A stretch of 29,526 nucleotides of DNA from a virus: positions 1-29,526 of the IMG/VR virus record IMGVR_UViG_3300034374_010178; one strand, 5' to 3'. The notes beneath the pieces were generated by a model. That model did no database searches. It saw only the letters and a list, made by a program, of their open reading frames with translations, and had not been told where the DNA came from. Positions 18,672 to 29,526 of this stretch are shown here, in pieces. The position numbers and the translations under genes are program-made. How positions within the stretch are numbered: the first letter of the stretch is position 1; each line of letters begins with the position of its first letter.

Positions 18672-19148
18672 TTAATCTAGTAATTTTATACTATTATTTT
18701 CTAGTAATTGTATATTTTTATCTTTATTATAAAACAAATAAAACTCCCATATTTTACGAACTTCTTTCAATGTAAAACTAAACTCTTTTGTAGTTTCAAA
18801 ACGTAAATCACGCCCAATTTTTTTTAAAACTAAGGCAACGTCGTCATCTACAACAAAACCAGTGTATTGCTTTTTGAATCGTTCTAAAAAAGATTGAAAT
18901 TTAATTTCTTTTTCGTCATCTTCACTTAAATTATATCTATTAGCATGTTTAATGATATTACTTGGTCTTGGCATATATTGACTATCATTATTTTTAACTA
19001 AATATCTAATTGATTTTACAACATTTTGTATTTCTTCATCAATCAAAAAATCTATATAAGATTTAAACATTTCTTTATCTTTGTTCAATGGATCTTTTTC
19101 ATACGCTCTAAACATTGAATTTAATGCTGAGATCAATTCTTTACTCAT
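18672..19148 (-). CDS. Possible helicase loader / replication accessory protein
   Basis: A 158-aa protein directly after the O-like initiator gene, where lambda P and G39P-type loaders sit. An early region (FRAYEKDPLNKDKEMFKSYI then EEIQNVVKSIRYLVKNN) followed by MPRPSNIIKHANR resembles the N-terminal domain of phage helicase loaders and inhibitors (a short helical bundle, then a PxPxxI motif). There is no Walker A, so it is not a DnaC-type ATPase. The ATG at 19148 has GAGGG upstream. The function is inferred mainly from position and this weak pattern. Confidence 0.55.
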   Translation of the reverse strand: MSKELISALNSMFRAYEKDPLNKDKEMFKSYIDFLIDEEIQNVVKSIRYLVKNNDSQYMPRPSNIIKHANRYNLSEDDEKEIKFQSFLERFKKQYTGFVVDDDVALVLKKIGRDLRFETTKEFSFTLKEVRKIWEFYLFYNKDKNIQLLENNSIKLLD

Positions 19149-19150
19149 AT

Positions 19151-19966
19151 TTACCCTCTTTTCTGTAATTCATTAACAAACTCATATATCTCATTCACAG
19201 ATTCTGTTTCGTATTGTTCGTTATTTTTTTTATTAACGATTTTATTGTAATTATTCTCACTGTACCTTAATAGCCAATTCCTAGAGGCCGCTACCCAGCT
19301 CTTCATTGGCTTTCCTGCAACTTTCCACCCGTTAGATTCATAATAGTTGAAAAATTGCTCTGACTGCAAAAATAAAGCCCTCTCATTAACATTTAGACTC
19401 TTAGAAAATGCATATTTAGATATTTCTTTAAAAATATCATTAATTTCAGGCTTAACAAACTTTTTCTTTTTATCGATACTTTCAAAAATATTAAATTGCT
19501 CATTTTTATCACTTTCTTTTTTAGATATTAATTTATTAATATCTTTTTTCTTTATATTATTATCATTCTTATCATTATTGTTTGTGCGCGCTATCGTTTC
19601 ACTATCGTTTCGCCATCGTTTCGCTATCGTTTCGCTATCGTTTCTTGATTCTTGATATTTATCATAATTTACGCACGAAATTAACGTTCCTTTTCCGATC
19701 GCTATCGTTTCGATCATTGAATCATTTTGTAAAAATTTTATTGCACGTGTGATTGTCGATCTATGAATATTAATTTGCTCTGATAATTTACTAAGAGAAG
19801 TATAAAAAGACCCCCTTTTTATCAATGTTTTTTGATTATTGATAATGATACTCTTATCTTTATGATTACATCTAAGTAAAATCTGAATAAATACTAAAAA
19901 ATATGATTGATTTGTCATTAAATGATGATCTAATAATGATCGATGAAGTTTTATATAACCCTCCAT
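19151..19966 (-). CDS. Replication initiator (lambda O-like) carrying the origin
   Basis: A 271-aa protein. Residues 1-105 form a winged helix typical of phage replication initiators: YIKLHRSLLDHHLMTNQSYF, LIKRGSFYTSLSKLSEQINI, HRSTITRAIKFLQNDSMIE and ISCVNYDKYQ. Residues 105-165 are a polar linker with an 11-residue duplicated segment (NDSETIAKRWR / NDSETIARTNN) encoded by DNA iterons. The C terminus contains a basic helical domain with a SWVAASRNWLLRYSE segment common to O and DnaD-like initiators. It should bind the iterons and recruit loader and host helicase. SD GGGGG precedes the ATG at 19966. Confidence 0.8.
   Translation of the reverse strand: MEGYIKLHRSLLDHHLMTNQSYFLVFIQILLRCNHKDKSIIINNQKTLIKRGSFYTSLSKLSEQINIHRSTITRAIKFLQNDSMIETIAIGKGTLISCVNYDKYQESRNDSETIAKRWRNDSETIARTNNNDKNDNNIKKKDINKLISKKESDKNEQFNIFESIDKKKKFVKPEINDIFKEISKYAFSKSLNVNERALFLQSEQFFNYYESNGWKVAGKPMKSWVAASRNWLLRYSENNYNKIVNKKNNEQYETESVNEIYEFVNELQKRG
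19500..19711. other. Putative origin of replication
   Basis: Six copies of an 11-bp iteron (consensus GCTATCGTTTC) flank the middle of the initiator gene: five in tandem at 19590-19644 and one at 19701-19711 inside the imperfect palindrome GATCG...CGATC. The adjoining 19500-19589 is nearly all A/T and pyrimidine-biased, a candidate unwinding element. Iterons plus an AT-rich tract inside an O-like gene is exactly the lambdoid arrangement. Binding and origin function are inferred. Confidence 0.75.
19590..19644. repeat. Five tandem 11-bp iterons
   Basis: The five units are GCTATCGTTTC, ACTATCGTTTC, GCCATCGTTTC, GCTATCGTTTC and GCTATCGTTTC: exact spacing, two single-base variants. Because 11 is not a multiple of three, coding is preserved only over 33 bp (three units), which explains the 11-residue protein repeat. 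The spacing is one helical turn, so a regular protein array on one face of the helix is likely. Confidence 0.9.
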
Positions 19967-20252: not shown

Positions 20253-20283
20253 AAATTCATTAAAAAACAAGGGAGTAAATATA

Positions 20284-20886
20284 ATGAAAGAATTATTAAG
20301 AAAACTACAAAAGGTTCAATCAGAGTTAAAATCTAAAAAAAAGAGGTATAATTCATTTGGTGAATATAAATATAGATCATGTGAGGATATCCTAGAAGAT
20401 GTCAAACCACTTCTTTTTGAAAATGGATTATTTATCTTAATTTCAGATGATATTGAATATTATCATGGTAGGCATTATGTTAAATCAACAATTAGTGTAT
20501 ATGATATTTCATCAAATACAGGTACTTTTTTAGAGGTACATGCATATGCAAGGGAGGAAGAATCAAAAAAAAAGATGGACGCAAGTCAAATAACTGGTTC
20601 AACGTCATCATATGCAAGAAAATACGCATTAAACGGCCTTTTTGCTATCGATGATGCAAAAGACAGTGATGCGACAAATAAACATGAAAATTACAAAAAA
20701 AAAGAAAAACAACATGTAAATGAAGATAAAAAAAGAGAATATCTAGAAAAAATGCAAAAATCTAATTCTATAGAAGAGTTAAAGGAATTATGGAGTAACG
20801 ATATTCCGCAAGAATATCGAATAGAATTATCATATGAAAAAAATATATTAAAAGAAAAACTTGATAAAGAAGCGAAAAGCAAATAG
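20284..20886 (+). CDS. erf: ERF-family single-strand annealing recombinase
   Basis: A 200-aa protein. The ERF domain covers about residues 1-125: LLRKLQKVQSELKSKKKRYN, FGEYKYRSCEDILEDVKPLL, the strand region HYVKSTISVYDISS, then MDASQITGSTSSYARKYALN and LFAIDDAKDSD. The C terminus is a Lys/Glu-rich coiled coil. ERF proteins anneal single strands made by the partner exonuclease. The ATG at 20284 is chosen because AAGGGAG lies just upstream; an upstream ATG at 20224 overlaps the promoter -35. Confidence 0.88.
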   Translation: MKELLRKLQKVQSELKSKKKRYNSFGEYKYRSCEDILEDVKPLLFENGLFILISDDIEYYHGRHYVKSTISVYDISSNTGTFLEVHAYAREEESKKKMDASQITGSTSSYARKYALNGLFAIDDAKDSDATNKHENYKKKEKQHVNEDKKREYLEKMQKSNSIEELKELWSNDIPQEYRIELSYEKNILKEKLDKEAKSK

Positions 20887-20896
20887 GTGAAATTTT

Positions 20897-21796
20897 ATGA
20901 AAGAATTAAACAAGTATAACTATATTATAGAAAAAGACACATTAACTATTTTTGATGAGGGGGAATTAAGATTAGATTCTATTTTAAATAAAAAAATAAA
21001 AAAATTAAACGCTCCTAATTCTGATGCGATTTATTGCCAAAATAACAATTTAACGGAATTAAACGCTCCTAATGCTAAAAGAATTTCTTGCTACAATAAC
21101 AAATTAACAGAATTAAACGCCCCTAATGCTAAAGGAATTTTTTGTTGGAATAACAATTTAACAGAATTAAATGCCCCGAACGCTAAAGGAATTGATTGTT
21201 CTTATAACAATTTAACAGAATTAAATGCCCCTAATGCTAAAGTAATTTATTGTTCTTATAACAATTTAACAGAATTAAATGCCCCGAACGCTAAAGAAAT
21301 TTATTGCTGGAATAACAAATTAACAGAATTAAACGCTACTAAGGCTGAGATAATTGATTGCCGTCATAACAAATTAACAGAATTAAACGCTACTAAGGCT
21401 GAGATAATTGATTGCCGTCATAACAAATTAACAGAATTAAACGCCCCTAATGCTAAAGTAATTTATTGTTCTTATAACAATTTAACAGAATTAAACGCAC
21501 CTAATGTTGAAAGAATTTATTGCTGTAATAACAAATTAACAGAATTAAACGCCCCTAATGCCAAAAGAATTTATTGTTCTTATAATAAATTAACAGAATT
21601 AAACGCCCCTAATGCTAAAATAATTGATTGCCGTCATAACAAATTAACAGAATTAAACGCCCCTAATGCTGAAAGAATTTATTGTTACAATAACAATTTA
21701 ACAGAATTAAACGTTCCGAATGCAGATTTAATTTATTGTTACAATAACAATTTAACAGAATTAAATGATACCAATACTAAGCTAGAATCTTGGTAA
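20897..21796 (+). CDS. LRR-like 18-residue repeat protein A
   Basis: A 299-aa solenoid. After a cap (KELNKYNYIIEKDTLTIFDE, then LDSILNKKIKK) come one partial, 13 full and one terminal partial repeat of consensus LTELNAPNAKxIYCxxNx. The pattern IxCxxNxLTxL is that of bacterial leucine-rich repeats, but the unit is only 18 residues and the Cys recurs at nearly every turn. There is no signal peptide, membrane segment or effector domain. It follows ERF by ten bases with AGGTGA upstream. A binding scaffold for a host protein or nucleic acid is plausible; the target is unknown. A paralogue lies at 24999. Confidence 0.8.
   Translation: MKELNKYNYIIEKDTLTIFDEGELRLDSILNKKIKKLNAPNSDAIYCQNNNLTELNAPNAKRISCYNNKLTELNAPNAKGIFCWNNNLTELNAPNAKGIDCSYNNLTELNAPNAKVIYCSYNNLTELNAPNAKEIYCWNNKLTELNATKAEIIDCRHNKLTELNATKAEIIDCRHNKLTELNAPNAKVIYCSYNNLTELNAPNVERIYCCNNKLTELNAPNAKRIYCSYNKLTELNAPNAKIIDCRHNKLTELNAPNAERIYCYNNNLTELNVPNADLIYCYNNNLTELNDTNTKLESW
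21314..21421 (+). repeat. Perfect tandem 54-bp duplication in repeat gene A
   Basis: Units 21314-21367 and 21368-21421 are identical, each encoding LTELNATKAEIIDCRHNK. Neighbouring units differ at several bases, so this is a recent unit duplication inside an older array. Confidence 0.9.
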
Positions 21797-21815
21797 CAAT
21801 TTAACAATATAATGG

Positions 21816-21844
21816 TTGATAATAAATTATTATTATGTTAAATT
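21816..21844 (+). promoter_or_regulatory. Early promoter, TGTTAAATT class (before the exonuclease)
   Basis: TTGATA (21816-21821), 17-bp spacer ending TGT, then TAAATT (21839-21844) followed by ATATAT. The block is nearly identical to those at 23820 and 24940 and sits 32 bases before the gene start at 21876. Confidence 0.7.
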
Positions 21845-21875
21845 ATATATGAATTAAAACAAGGGAGTTATAAAA

Positions 21876-22505
21876 ATGATAGTACATAAAATAGAGCAAA
21901 AAAGTGAAGAATGGAACGAGATTAGAAAAGGCAAGCTAACCGCCAGTAATTTTTCTAAAATATTAACAAAAACAGGCAAACTATCTTCACAATATATCGA
22001 TGTTATCTATGAAAATTTAGCAGAGTTGCATACATGCCAAAGTGAATACCAGCCTACAAATTTTTATATGGAAAGGGGGTTAGAATTAGAAGAATACGCT
22101 ATTTTAAACTATGAAAGTATATCAGGCGAAATAGTTGATAAAATTGGGTTTATTGAGTCTGAATGTGGTTTACTTGGGGTTTCACCCGACGGGTTGGTCG
22201 GTAAGGATGGTATTATTGAGGTTAAGTGTTTGATGCAAAAAAAACACATTGCTTTGTTACTTGGAGAATATAAAGAAATAGATACTTATATACCTCAGAT
22301 GCAATTCCAGTTGTTTGTATCTAAAAGGAAATGGGTTGATTTTATTTCTTATAATCCCGATTTTATAGAGCCTGAAAAAAGAATATTTATAAAAAGGATA
22401 TTTATTGATGAGGAATATCAGAAATTAATTTCAAAATCTATAGATCAATACAAAGAAAAATTTATTGAATTAAGTAATTTATTGGGTAAAAATAATATAT
22501 TTTAA
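21876..22505 (+). CDS. YqaJ-type phage exonuclease (lambda Exo-like)
   Basis: A 209-aa nuclease of the YqaJ/lambda exonuclease fold. Key features are WNEIRKGKLTASNFSKIL, ERGLELEEYA (Glu 69 to 73 region), LLGVSPDGLVGKDGIIEVKC with the PD-(D/E)XK set Asp 105, Glu 115 and Lys 117, and PQMQFQLFVSKRKWVDF. It chews 5' ends of double-stranded DNA to expose strands for ERF. It has its own promoter at 21816 and AAGGGAG before the ATG. The length is typical. Confidence 0.9.
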   Translation: MIVHKIEQKSEEWNEIRKGKLTASNFSKILTKTGKLSSQYIDVIYENLAELHTCQSEYQPTNFYMERGLELEEYAILNYESISGEIVDKIGFIESECGLLGVSPDGLVGKDGIIEVKCLMQKKHIALLLGEYKEIDTYIPQMQFQLFVSKRKWVDFISYNPDFIEPEKRIFIKRIFIDEEYQKLISKSIDQYKEKFIELSNLLGKNNIF

Positions 22506-22521
22506 AATAGGAGTAATAAAA

Positions 22522-22851
22522 ATGAATCAAGTAATTTTAATAGGTAATCTTACTCGCGATGTTGAGTGCAATGCTGTGAGTACAGGCGATTTAGTAGCCA
22601 AATTTTCTATAGCTGTAAATAGGGGGAAAGATCATGTTGACTTTATAAACTGCGAGGCATGGGGTAAATTAGCAGATAATCTAAATCAGTACTGTAAAAA
22701 GGGGTCAAAAATAGCGGTTATTGGATCGATTAGAGTAGATAATTATGAAAAAGATGGAGAAAAAAGAACATATTATAAAGTTAATTGTTTCTCTATTGAA
22801 TTTTTAAGTAAAAAAGAATTAACAGACAATAAGATAGAATCTGATTTCTAA
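22522..22851 (+). CDS. ssb: Single-stranded DNA-binding protein
   Basis: A 109-aa OB-fold SSB: MNQVILIGNLTRDVECNAVS, ATxx-like LVAKFSIAVNRG, VDFINCEAWGKLADNLNQYC, KKGSKIAVIGSIRVDNYEKD and YYKVNCFSIEFL. The C-terminal tail is short but ends ESDF, echoing the DDxxF protein-docking tip of bacterial SSBs. It protects single strands during replication and recombination. It lies 16 bases after the exonuclease with AGGAG upstream, so they form one transcript. Confidence 0.93.
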   Translation: MNQVILIGNLTRDVECNAVSTGDLVAKFSIAVNRGKDHVDFINCEAWGKLADNLNQYCKKGSKIAVIGSIRVDNYEKDGEKRTYYKVNCFSIEFLSKKELTDNKIESDF

Positions 22852-24998: not shown

Positions 24999-25787
24999 AT
25001 GAAAGAATTAAGTCAACATAACTATATTATAGAAAAAGATACATTAACTATTTTTGATGATGGGGCATTAATATTAGATTCTATTTTAAATAAAAAAATA
25101 AAAAAATTAAACGCTCCTAAAGCTAAAGAAATTTATTGTAGTGACAACAACTTAACAGAATTAAACGCTCCTAATGCTAAAATAATTGATTGTTACAATA
25201 ACAAATTAACAGAATTAAATGCACAGAACGCTAAAGAAATTTATTGTAGTTACAACAACTTAACAGAATTAAACGCTCATAAAGCTGAGATAATTTATTG
25301 TTACAATAACAAATTAACAGAATTAAATGCACAGAACGCTAAAGAAATTATTTGTAGTTACAACAACTTAACAGAATTAAACGCTCATAAAGCTGAGATA
25401 ATTTATTGTTACAATAACAAATTAACAGAATTAAATGCTCCTAAAGCTGAAAGAATTATTTGCTATAGTAACAATTTAACAGAATTAAATGCTCCTAAAG
25501 CTGAAAGAATTATTTGCTATAGTAACAATTTAACAGAATTAAATGCTCCTAAAGCTGAAAGAATTAATTGTGAAAATAACAAATTAACAGAATTAAACGC
25601 TCCTAATGCTGAAAGAATTTATTTTTCTTATAACAACTTAACAGAATTAAACGCTCCTAAAGCTGAGATAATTTACTGCGCAAATAACAAATTAACAAAG
25701 TTAAATGCCCCGAATGCTAAAGAAATTTATTGTTTAGGTAATAAACTAGAAGAATTAAATGCACCAAACGCTGAAATAATAAAATAG
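24999..25787 (+). CDS. LRR-like 18-residue repeat protein B
   Basis: A 262-aa paralogue of the protein at 20897, with the same N-terminal cap (KELSQHNYIIEKDTLTIFDD) and one partial, 11 full and one terminal partial repeat of the form LTELNAPxAExIxCxxNx. The Cys ladder is kept except one turn (IYFSYNN). Unlike copy A it has its own promoter and an AAGGAGG ribosome site, suggesting high expression. Repeats diverge between the copies while the cap stays near-identical, as expected if arrays turn over by recombination. Function unknown; a cytoplasmic binding protein is likely. Confidence 0.8.
   Translation: MKELSQHNYIIEKDTLTIFDDGALILDSILNKKIKKLNAPKAKEIYCSDNNLTELNAPNAKIIDCYNNKLTELNAQNAKEIYCSYNNLTELNAHKAEIIYCYNNKLTELNAQNAKEIICSYNNLTELNAHKAEIIYCYNNKLTELNAPKAERIICYSNNLTELNAPKAERIICYSNNLTELNAPKAERINCENNKLTELNAPNAERIYFSYNNLTELNAPKAEIIYCANNKLTKLNAPNAKEIYCLGNKLEELNAPNAEIIK
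25437..25544 (+). repeat. Perfect tandem 54-bp duplication in repeat gene B
   Basis: Units 25437-25490 and 25491-25544 are identical, encoding APKAERIICYSNNLTELN twice. Upstream, a 108-bp double unit (about 25208-25423) is also repeated almost exactly, differing by a Tyr-to-Ile codon. Both point to recent expansion. Confidence 0.85.
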
Positions 25788-28276: not shown

Positions 28277-28686
28277 TACTGAATGCCTTTCTTAGATAAA
28301 AAATTATTAAATTTATTATTTATATTATTAAACTTTATTTTATCTGAATCAAATTTTTCATTATCATTTAATATATTATTTAATTCATTAATAATAATAT
28401 TTATATCATTATAATTATAGTTTGATATCTCATTTTTTAGTATAGACAATATTTGTTGTTTAGCATTATCACTAATAGACTTATGATCTCTAATAAAAGC
28501 CGATATTCCATTATTATTTATTTTTTTGTCTATATCTTTTAAAAACTTCATCTCTTTATGGATGTTATCCATTAATTGCCCTTTTTTAAGCTTCCACAAC
28601 AAGAAGCTTTCATCAAATTCAACGGATACTTCAGGAATTGTTGGTAATTCTGTATCTAAATTATTATTGTCTATAATGTATTTCAT
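28276..28686 (-). CDS. Fibre-associated hypothetical protein (complete copy)
   Basis: A 136-aa protein between the tail-tip and tail-fibre genes. The first 50 residues (TELPTIPEVSVEFDESFLLW then KLKKGQLMDNIHKEMKFL) form a conserved head, and the rest is Asn/Asp/Lys-rich helix. AAGGG precedes the ATG at 28686. The start region is repeated at 1-141. Position suggests a tail-fibre linker or assembly factor; no family is recognised. Confidence 0.65.
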   Translation of the reverse strand: MKYIIDNNNLDTELPTIPEVSVEFDESFLLWKLKKGQLMDNIHKEMKFLKDIDKKINNNGISAFIRDHKSISDNAKQQILSILKNEISNYNYNDINIIINELNNILNDNEKFDSDKIKFNNINNKFNNFLSKKGIQ

Positions 28687-29526
28687 AAATAACCCTTTCT
28701 TTAATAGCCTTTAGCAAACCAACTGACATTTTTAGCAGAATAACCAGCCCCACGTTCTACACCAATATCAAAGCTTGTTTTAGTTATGTTTTCAATCACG
28801 AGATAATCACTAGCAGTAGTTCCATCTAATATGGTACCACCAACTGAGGGTATCGCCTGGAATGTTTTATTAAAATTAACAGTTGTCAAACCAGAACCAG
28901 AAGTTGTCAAATCGCCAGTATCTACGACATCCGGCATATCGACAGTTACACTTAAATTGCTGATCAAAATATTAAAATTGCTCTTTTCTGATTCGCAAAC
29001 TATTTTAAATTTAAATGCTCTGGCATTATAATCACCAGTAAAGAATTTCCTATAACTAGACCAAGTTGGACTACCGCTTGGGTCATCATCTGTTGTTGAT
29101 ATATATGGTGTTACTTTTATGGGGTCATTATCATCACCATCAAATTTACCACTAGCATCATCAAACAAACCTTGATAATCGTCAAAGTAATTACCCGGTT
29201 CATCAATAGTAAATTTTATTGATAAATAAATTCTTGATGTAGACATTACACCCGTATCAATATAATCACTAAATTCATATTCACCGCTAGTTACAAAACC
29301 TGACCCACCACCGCCATCAAAACTGCCAACTGCGTCATCAAAATTACCAGATAAGCTATCAAATAAAGACACACTATCAAAAGATAAATTAGAGCTGCTT
29401 ACGTTCATATCTGTTTTTGTTCCTGTAAAAGTTGGGTTTTCTGTTAAAGTTTCAACGACATTCATTTTAATAAGAGTAGGGCTATTTGTTACAATAGTTG
29501 TTGCACTATCAGATACATTCCCCTGG
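28546..29526. repeat. Right copy of imperfect terminal direct repeat
   Basis: This matches 1-982 as described for the left copy. The final 123 bases, 29404-29526, are identical to 860-982 up to the window's last base, as expected when an assembly stops where two variants become indistinguishable. If the ends are joined, the unit length is about 28,545 bases. Confidence 0.85.
28701..29526 (-). CDS. Tail tip protein, C-terminal fragment (cut by window edge)
   Basis: The frame ends at 28701 and is still open at 29526, so only the C-terminal 275 residues or so are present. The methionine at 29465 is internal, as shown by the matching position in the complete gene. The fragment is about 94% identical in protein to the end of the gene at 157-3507, while the DNA is only about 90% identical, with mostly silent changes. 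It keeps the FDDxxGxFD and SWFAKGY end. It represents either the second strain variant of the same gene or a real second copy. Confidence 0.8.
   Translation of the reverse strand, partial: QGNVSDSATTIVTNSPTLIKMNVVETLTENPTFTGTKTDMNVSSSNLSFDSVSLFDSLSGNFDDAVGSFDGGGGSGFVTSGEYEFSDYIDTGVMSTSRIYLSIKFTIDEPGNYFDDYQGLFDDASGKFDGDDNDPIKVTPYISTTDDDPSGSPTWSSYRKFFTGDYNARAFKFKIVCESEKSNFNILISNLSVTVDMPDVVDTGDLTTSGSGLTTVNFNKTFQAIPSVGGTILDGTTASDYLVIENITKTSFDIGVERGAGYSAKNVSWFAKGY

Follow-up and report, generated by a model that had tools for sequence, protein, structure and literature searches.

We find that the window, i.e. the whole 29,526-base stretch of DNA analysed here (a linear IMG/VR virus record, 70% AT), very probably holds a phage replication origin within its initiator gene, in the part that codes for the linker. 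In the mechanism that we propose, the winged-helix domains of the initiator would line up head to tail on the five 11-bp iterons, each binding at one helical turn and all on one face of the DNA. The resulting nucleoprotein complex would strain and then open the adjoining AT-rich tract, and the C-terminal helical domain, alone or with the product of the gene at 18672-19148, a possible loader, would recruit the host replicative helicase. The repeats are not a product of chance, selection acts on them at the level of DNA, and their period is shared across the initiator's family in phase with a conserved junction element. We assign the locus to a known kind of intragenic phage origin because of the comparison with its nearest relative, the arrays found among 226 initiators, and the layout shared with phages r1t and Tuc2009. 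The initial annotation had already placed an origin within the initiator gene, and this placement gains strong comparative support from the concerted drift of the iterons, the conservation of silent sites, and the phasing of the family's arrays to the junction.

The initiator gene lies at 19151..19966 on the minus strand and encodes a protein of 271 aa (P0001) that profile and fold matches assign to the PHROG 2514 'DnaD-like helicase loader' type. The match to phrog_2514 (E 8.6e-30) aligns residues 1-175 with positions 2-182 of the 270 in the profile, thereby covering the N-terminal domain and the linker; weaker matches were obtained with phrog_186 (3.6e-14) and with the O-like phrog_678 (4.1e-5). 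The AlphaFold (AF2) model, computed from an alignment of 26 sequences (mean pLDDT 79.5), predicts a two-domain fold with a disordered linker: a winged helix modelled with confidence (residues ~10-105), a linker of low confidence (~106-170), and, from ~174 onwards, a C-terminal domain made of helices. The winged-helix domain (residues 10-105, 19652..19939, minus strand; pLDDT 89-98 in blocks 11-100) is the predicted iteron binder, and the helix modelled at residues 69-81 (RSTITRAIKFLQN; 19724..19762, minus strand) its predicted recognition helix. In the PDB this domain matches generic winged-helix DNA-binding proteins, weakly (E 0.004 at best), and the matches of HTH models to P0001 fell below the cut-off. 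In the library of viral structures searched, the proteins nearest to P0001 in fold have a DnaD domain or are replisome organizers.

The C-terminal helical domain (residues about 174-245, 19232..19447, minus strand; pLDDT 86-95 in blocks 171-240) is the proposed contact with the helicase or its loader. This region matches phrog_15768 and phrog_28809, both of unknown function. A search with PF07261 (DnaD/DnaB_2) returned no match in P0001 and one at 3e-11 in the related protein of a Staphylococcus phage (L058). Since the C-terminal domain of P0001 differs from the DnaB_2 domain of this relative, the family seems to share an N-terminal origin-reading module joined to different helicase-recruiting ends.

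Five tandem iterons of the 11-bp unit GAAACGATAGC occupy 19590..19644 on the minus strand, as established by repeat finding, pattern search and codon shuffles. On the coding strand the units lie at 19590-19600, 19601-19611 (GAAACGATAGT), 19612-19622 (GAAACGATGGC), 19623-19633, and 19634-19644; three are exact copies, two differ by one base, and the spacing is exactly 11 bp throughout. TRF, run on the plus strand, reports the array at 19589-19644 with a period of 11, 5.1 copies, 91% match and a score of 98. At lag 11 the gene has 40 matches out of 44, to be compared with a maximum of 34 in 2000 codon shuffles. These three analyses bear out the initial description of five exactly spaced repeats and a sixth copy, and no further copy with 0 or 1 mismatch was found in the whole 29.5 kb beyond these six. 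The outlying copy lies in the part of the gene coding for the winged helix (19701..19711, minus strand, within MIETIAIG), and its role is uncertain. It had been described as part of a dyad, an element that fares less well: the inverted arms around it measure only about 5 bp each (GATCG...CGATC) and are disrupted in the nearest relative, for which reason we consider the dyad probably incidental. The 11-residue duplication that the initial annotation saw in the protein is indeed present (NDSETIAKRWR/NDSETIAR, encoded by the array) and is a consequence of the reading frame, because three units of 11 nt make 33 nt.

In the coding direction, an AT-rich tract begins immediately after the array and runs from 19588 down to 19495. 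This proposed DNA-unwinding element (19495..19588), initially described as a tract of some 90 bp, is 82% AT, and its core (19502-19581) reaches 87.5%, a value equalled by only 1% of the record's 80-nt windows. At the boundary between array and tract lies a junction element, ACAAACAATAATG (19573..19585, minus strand), which is present in 38 homologues. Array and tract are both encoded within the disordered linker, so that a constraint on the DNA is possible without damage to a fold. We also observed that the tract (19495-19585), like its homologues, is often built of 9-nt repeats, AAGAATGAT or AAGAATGTA, which place T at regular intervals on the template strand. One may speculate about an analogy with bacterial DnaD, which binds TnnT repeats (PMC10201434).

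The nearest distinct relative, L023, is a partial sequence with 81% amino acid identity. It keeps the five units at 11-bp spacing, with GAAACG changed to GATACG in all five of them and the same A-to-T change in the sixth copy. Since the units occupy three reading frames, this single base change appears in the protein as N-to-Y, E-to-D, and K-to-I. Five of the 15 differences in the array thus fall in one column, which occurs in 1% of random placements, a figure that ignores both the requirement for the same base change and the sixth copy 67 bp away. Over the AT-rich tract, 95 nt (19495-19589) are identical between the two sequences (P = 2e-4, with placements matched by codon position). Silent codon differences number 0 of 31 inside this identical run and 34 of 159 outside it. 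As far as can be judged from sequence comparison, these results show that selection acts on the repeats and on the AT-rich tract at the DNA level.

The period extends to the whole family. For 13 homologues of P0001 in named phages, with 21-32% identity overall, the autocorrelation of the linker DNA peaks only at lags of 11 (mean z 3.4), 22 (2.4), and 33 (1.8), whereas three control stretches taken from the same genes are flat. A further 35 loci from bacterial genomes give z values of 3.3, 2.1, and 1.4 at these lags. Of the 226 unique initiators collected, 140 repeat most strongly at 11 bp (119 genes) or 22 bp (21 genes); a further 28 do so at 9 bp, which is the repeat of the AT tract itself, and 10 at 12 bp. 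In 38 homologues a conserved DNA element, ACAAACAAnAATG, marks the end of the array. The first Asn codon of this junction is AAC in 37 of the 38, although the remainder of these genes uses AAC for just 279 of 699 Asn codons; its third codon is AAT in all 36 cases that encode Asn there. The arrays of different phages share their phase with ACAAACAAnAATG: the 11-bp power of the C profile is 0.227, whereas 500 controls with random phase did not exceed 0.059. These family statistics are descriptive, since the sequences are partly related by descent, and the robust point of the comparison is a period that is independent of the reading frame.

In view of these arrays, the short iteron with one-turn spacing is, on comparative grounds, typical of the initiator's family. 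The iteron had been called unfamiliar in the initial annotation, and this holds for its exact sequence only, which is unusual. A search for the exact iteron across IMG/VR matched only contigs of the same phage. It does not hold for the design, given that 11-bp intragenic arrays are usual in the family and also occur in r1t and Tuc2009. Moreover, L122, from the Marinilabilia/Labilibacter order, repeats ACGATAGC, and Labilibacter marinus repeats GAAACGCAAG. The initial annotation had also raised the question of whether the repeats can be lost while the initiator is conserved. Close relatives keep the array, but some distant ones do not: a strong array is absent in about 33 of the 226 initiators, including the distant viral contigs L041-L048, which have the same winged-helix domain (about 25% identity) and no detectable array. 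Other variants were observed as well. Five initiators (L051, L053, L065, L123, and L144) have 12-bp iterons at the same place, and the repeat of L050 is 23 bp long. The Marinilabilia-type initiators L063, L064, and L067 are only 162-165 aa long and consist of the winged helix, the iterons, and a short tail; as they have no C-terminal domain, their helicase-recruiting part must be elsewhere.

A broader reading, which we put forward tentatively and consider somewhat less probable than not, is that PHROG 2514-type initiators from several phyla share one undescribed origin module. It would combine iterons of strictly one helical turn (11 bp) with a conserved DNA element made of ACAAACAAnAATG and 9-nt AAGAATGAT-like repeats; the sequence of the iterons would be free to change, and their phase to this element fixed. 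The element would be the site of strand opening and loading, perhaps a template-strand counterpart of the DnaD recognition element (TnnT, PMC10201434). We found no description of a general rule linking 11-bp arrays and junction in the literature searched (open-licence papers only). By itself, the window is unremarkable: its iteron is new, but the kind of origin is known. It is the general rule behind it that is possibly undescribed. Such a rule would be of practical use, as origins are usually hard to locate in uncultured phages: in those of PHROG 2514 type, we suggest seeking an 11-bp array that ends at ACAAACAAnAATG, right after the part coding for the winged helix.

Because the reader and its site lie in one gene, each such phage is a natural protein-DNA specificity pair, and the co-evolution of initiator and iteron becomes directly testable. 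The first loci led us to a code in which the base at iteron position 3 would depend on which amino acid the recognition helix has at residue 70 (K/Q/H giving C, S/N giving A, T/Y giving G), and we rejected it as stated. The association is strong over 65 cluster representatives (z 7.8) but confounded by ancestry. In 54 independent sister pairs, none of the residue-base associations survived correction for 768 tests, and on 28 held-out clusters the residue-70 rule gave 15 correct assignments against 14.4 expected by chance (P 0.46).

Could the repeats serve something other than initiation? Winged-helix proteins commonly autoregulate, and single intragenic copies of a site can serve as operators, so the array might control transcription of the initiator's own gene, with the origin elsewhere. 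We regard this as improbable: the array does not lie at a promoter but ~320 bp into the gene, downstream of the start, and in many phages it goes together with an AT-rich tract and a junction that are conserved. Moreover, characterised relatives use such repeats as ori (PMC8965321). Still less credence is due to the idea that the repeats are a flexible, charged protein linker grown by slippage, with no role as DNA. The linker is disordered and rich in Asn, Asp, Lys, Ser, and Thr, and tandem slippage is easy in such sequence, but a period of 11 nt is not a whole number of codons. What largely refutes this idea is that one and the same base change recurs in three frames and also 67 bp off, in the outlying copy; the silent sites of the AT-rich tract are frozen, and unrelated arrays have a common junction phase.

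A function in partition, packaging or incompatibility seems equally far-fetched. Centromere-type iterons bound by winged-helix proteins do exist, and the fold matches include AspA and TubR. However, the neighbouring genes are those of replication and recombination (ERF, YqaJ, SSB), the family is annotated as initiators and helicase loaders, and a scan of the proteins from about half of the genes in the window found no homologue of ParA or TubZ. Some counterpoints bear on the preferred reading of an origin in the initiator gene. These are the genes lacking a strong array, the C-terminal domain that is neither DnaB_2 nor DnaD, and the weak match of the putative loader. The gene of the latter (158 aa, 18672..19148, minus strand) lies directly downstream of the initiator gene, like lambda P, and matches the helicase loader phrog_2289 at E 0.003.

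The rest of the record provides some context. A divergent block on the plus strand (20281..22851) encodes an ERF annealing protein, an LRR-like protein, a YqaJ exonuclease, and SSB. The cumulative GC skew, which the initial annotation had proposed as a check, does have its minimum near 20 kb, but this coincides with the switch of coding strand; since the skew follows gene strand, it is of no help in locating the origin. An Rfam search of the 29.5-kb window gave no match. Two paralogous proteins (20897-21796 and 24999-25787), one of them between the ERF and YqaJ genes, have 18-residue leucine-rich-like repeats encoded by 54-bp tandem units (LTELNAPNAKxIYCxNNK). The ends of the record (1-982 and 28546-29526) match each other on the same strand over 982 bases with 90% identity. 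The genome may be circular, of ~28.5 kb, with ends from two strain variants, and another contig of the same phage has 28,671 bases; alternatively, the match may be a real second copy of the end of a tail-tip protein with an H_lectin-like domain. In total, 15 other IMG/VR contigs belong to the same phage, with P0001 100% identical, and add no independent evidence. This marine phage probably has a host among Bacteroidota, the host being read from the initiator's kin only (Labilibacter with 44% identity and Marinilabilia with 39%, and the iterons of L122 and Labilibacter marinus). The terminase was tried for the same purpose and is uninformative: its best relative, with 44% identity, is in a Microcystis phage, and the hosts are mixed.

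Among known systems, lambda O with its ori-lambda has the same order as the window, i.e. winged helix, iterons, AT-rich tract, C-terminal domain, and loader gene (the last a weak match in the window). The four lambda iterons are annotated as 18 bp long, with starts 20, 24, and 23 bp apart, whereas those of the window measure 11 bp, adjoin head to tail and contain no dyad. The initial remark that the iterons are shorter than lambda's and spaced by one helical turn is therefore correct, and its term 'lambda-like' is apt for the working layout. It does not appear to extend to close kinship, given the length, spacing, and symmetry of the iterons and the far stronger match of P0001 to PHROG 2514 than to the O-like profile. 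Lambda O itself matches phrog_678 at 1.7e-35 and phrog_2514 at 2.8e-37, chiefly through its C-terminal part. SPP1, compared by its description (PMC6316719), has oriL in its initiator gene 38, with direct repeats and an AT-rich DUE as in the window, and a separate small loader, gp39. It differs by having a second origin, oriR; in the window a single array was found.

The homologous initiators of PHROG 2514/186 come from phages of Staphylococcus, Bacillus, Anoxybacillus, Enterococcus, Vibrio, and Shewanella and from prophages of Bacteroidota and Bacillota. They share with P0001 the N-terminal domain (21-46% identity), an AT-rich tract encoding Asn, Lys, and Asp, and linker arrays that are mostly of 11 bp and in one phase with ACAAACAAnAATG. 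They differ in the iteron, which varies by phage (many are GAACAACAAGT-like, unlike the GAAACGATAGC of the window, and one subclade has 12 bp), and the Staphylococcus phage member has a DnaB_2 C-terminal domain that P0001 lacks.

The characterised replisome organisers of lactococcal P335 phages provide the functional parallel. Both TP901-1 ORF13 and Tuc2009 Rep (ORF16) are reported to bind direct repeats that lie within their own coding sequences and act as ori, and r1t ORF11 to be a homologue of Rep2009 (PMC8965321). The annotation of the Tuc2009 rep gene reads 'contains origin of replication'. All three genes resemble the window in having mid-gene direct repeats followed by an A-rich tract, and in their DnaD-like annotation. 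In r1t and Tuc2009 the likeness extends to an 11-bp unit in the linker part of the gene with an adjoining AT-rich tract: r1t orf11 has 3.6 copies of TGGAACCGAAA and then a AGATAAGAAT-type tract, and Tuc2009 rep has units of CAACCAAATGA. The P335 systems differ from the window in their repeat sequences and C-terminal domains, in the 15-bp units of TP901-1, and in that r1t and Tuc2009 belong to PHROGs 1163 and 5708 rather than 2514. The origin of the window nevertheless appears to stand nearer to the DnaD-like organisers of the replisome than to lambda O itself.
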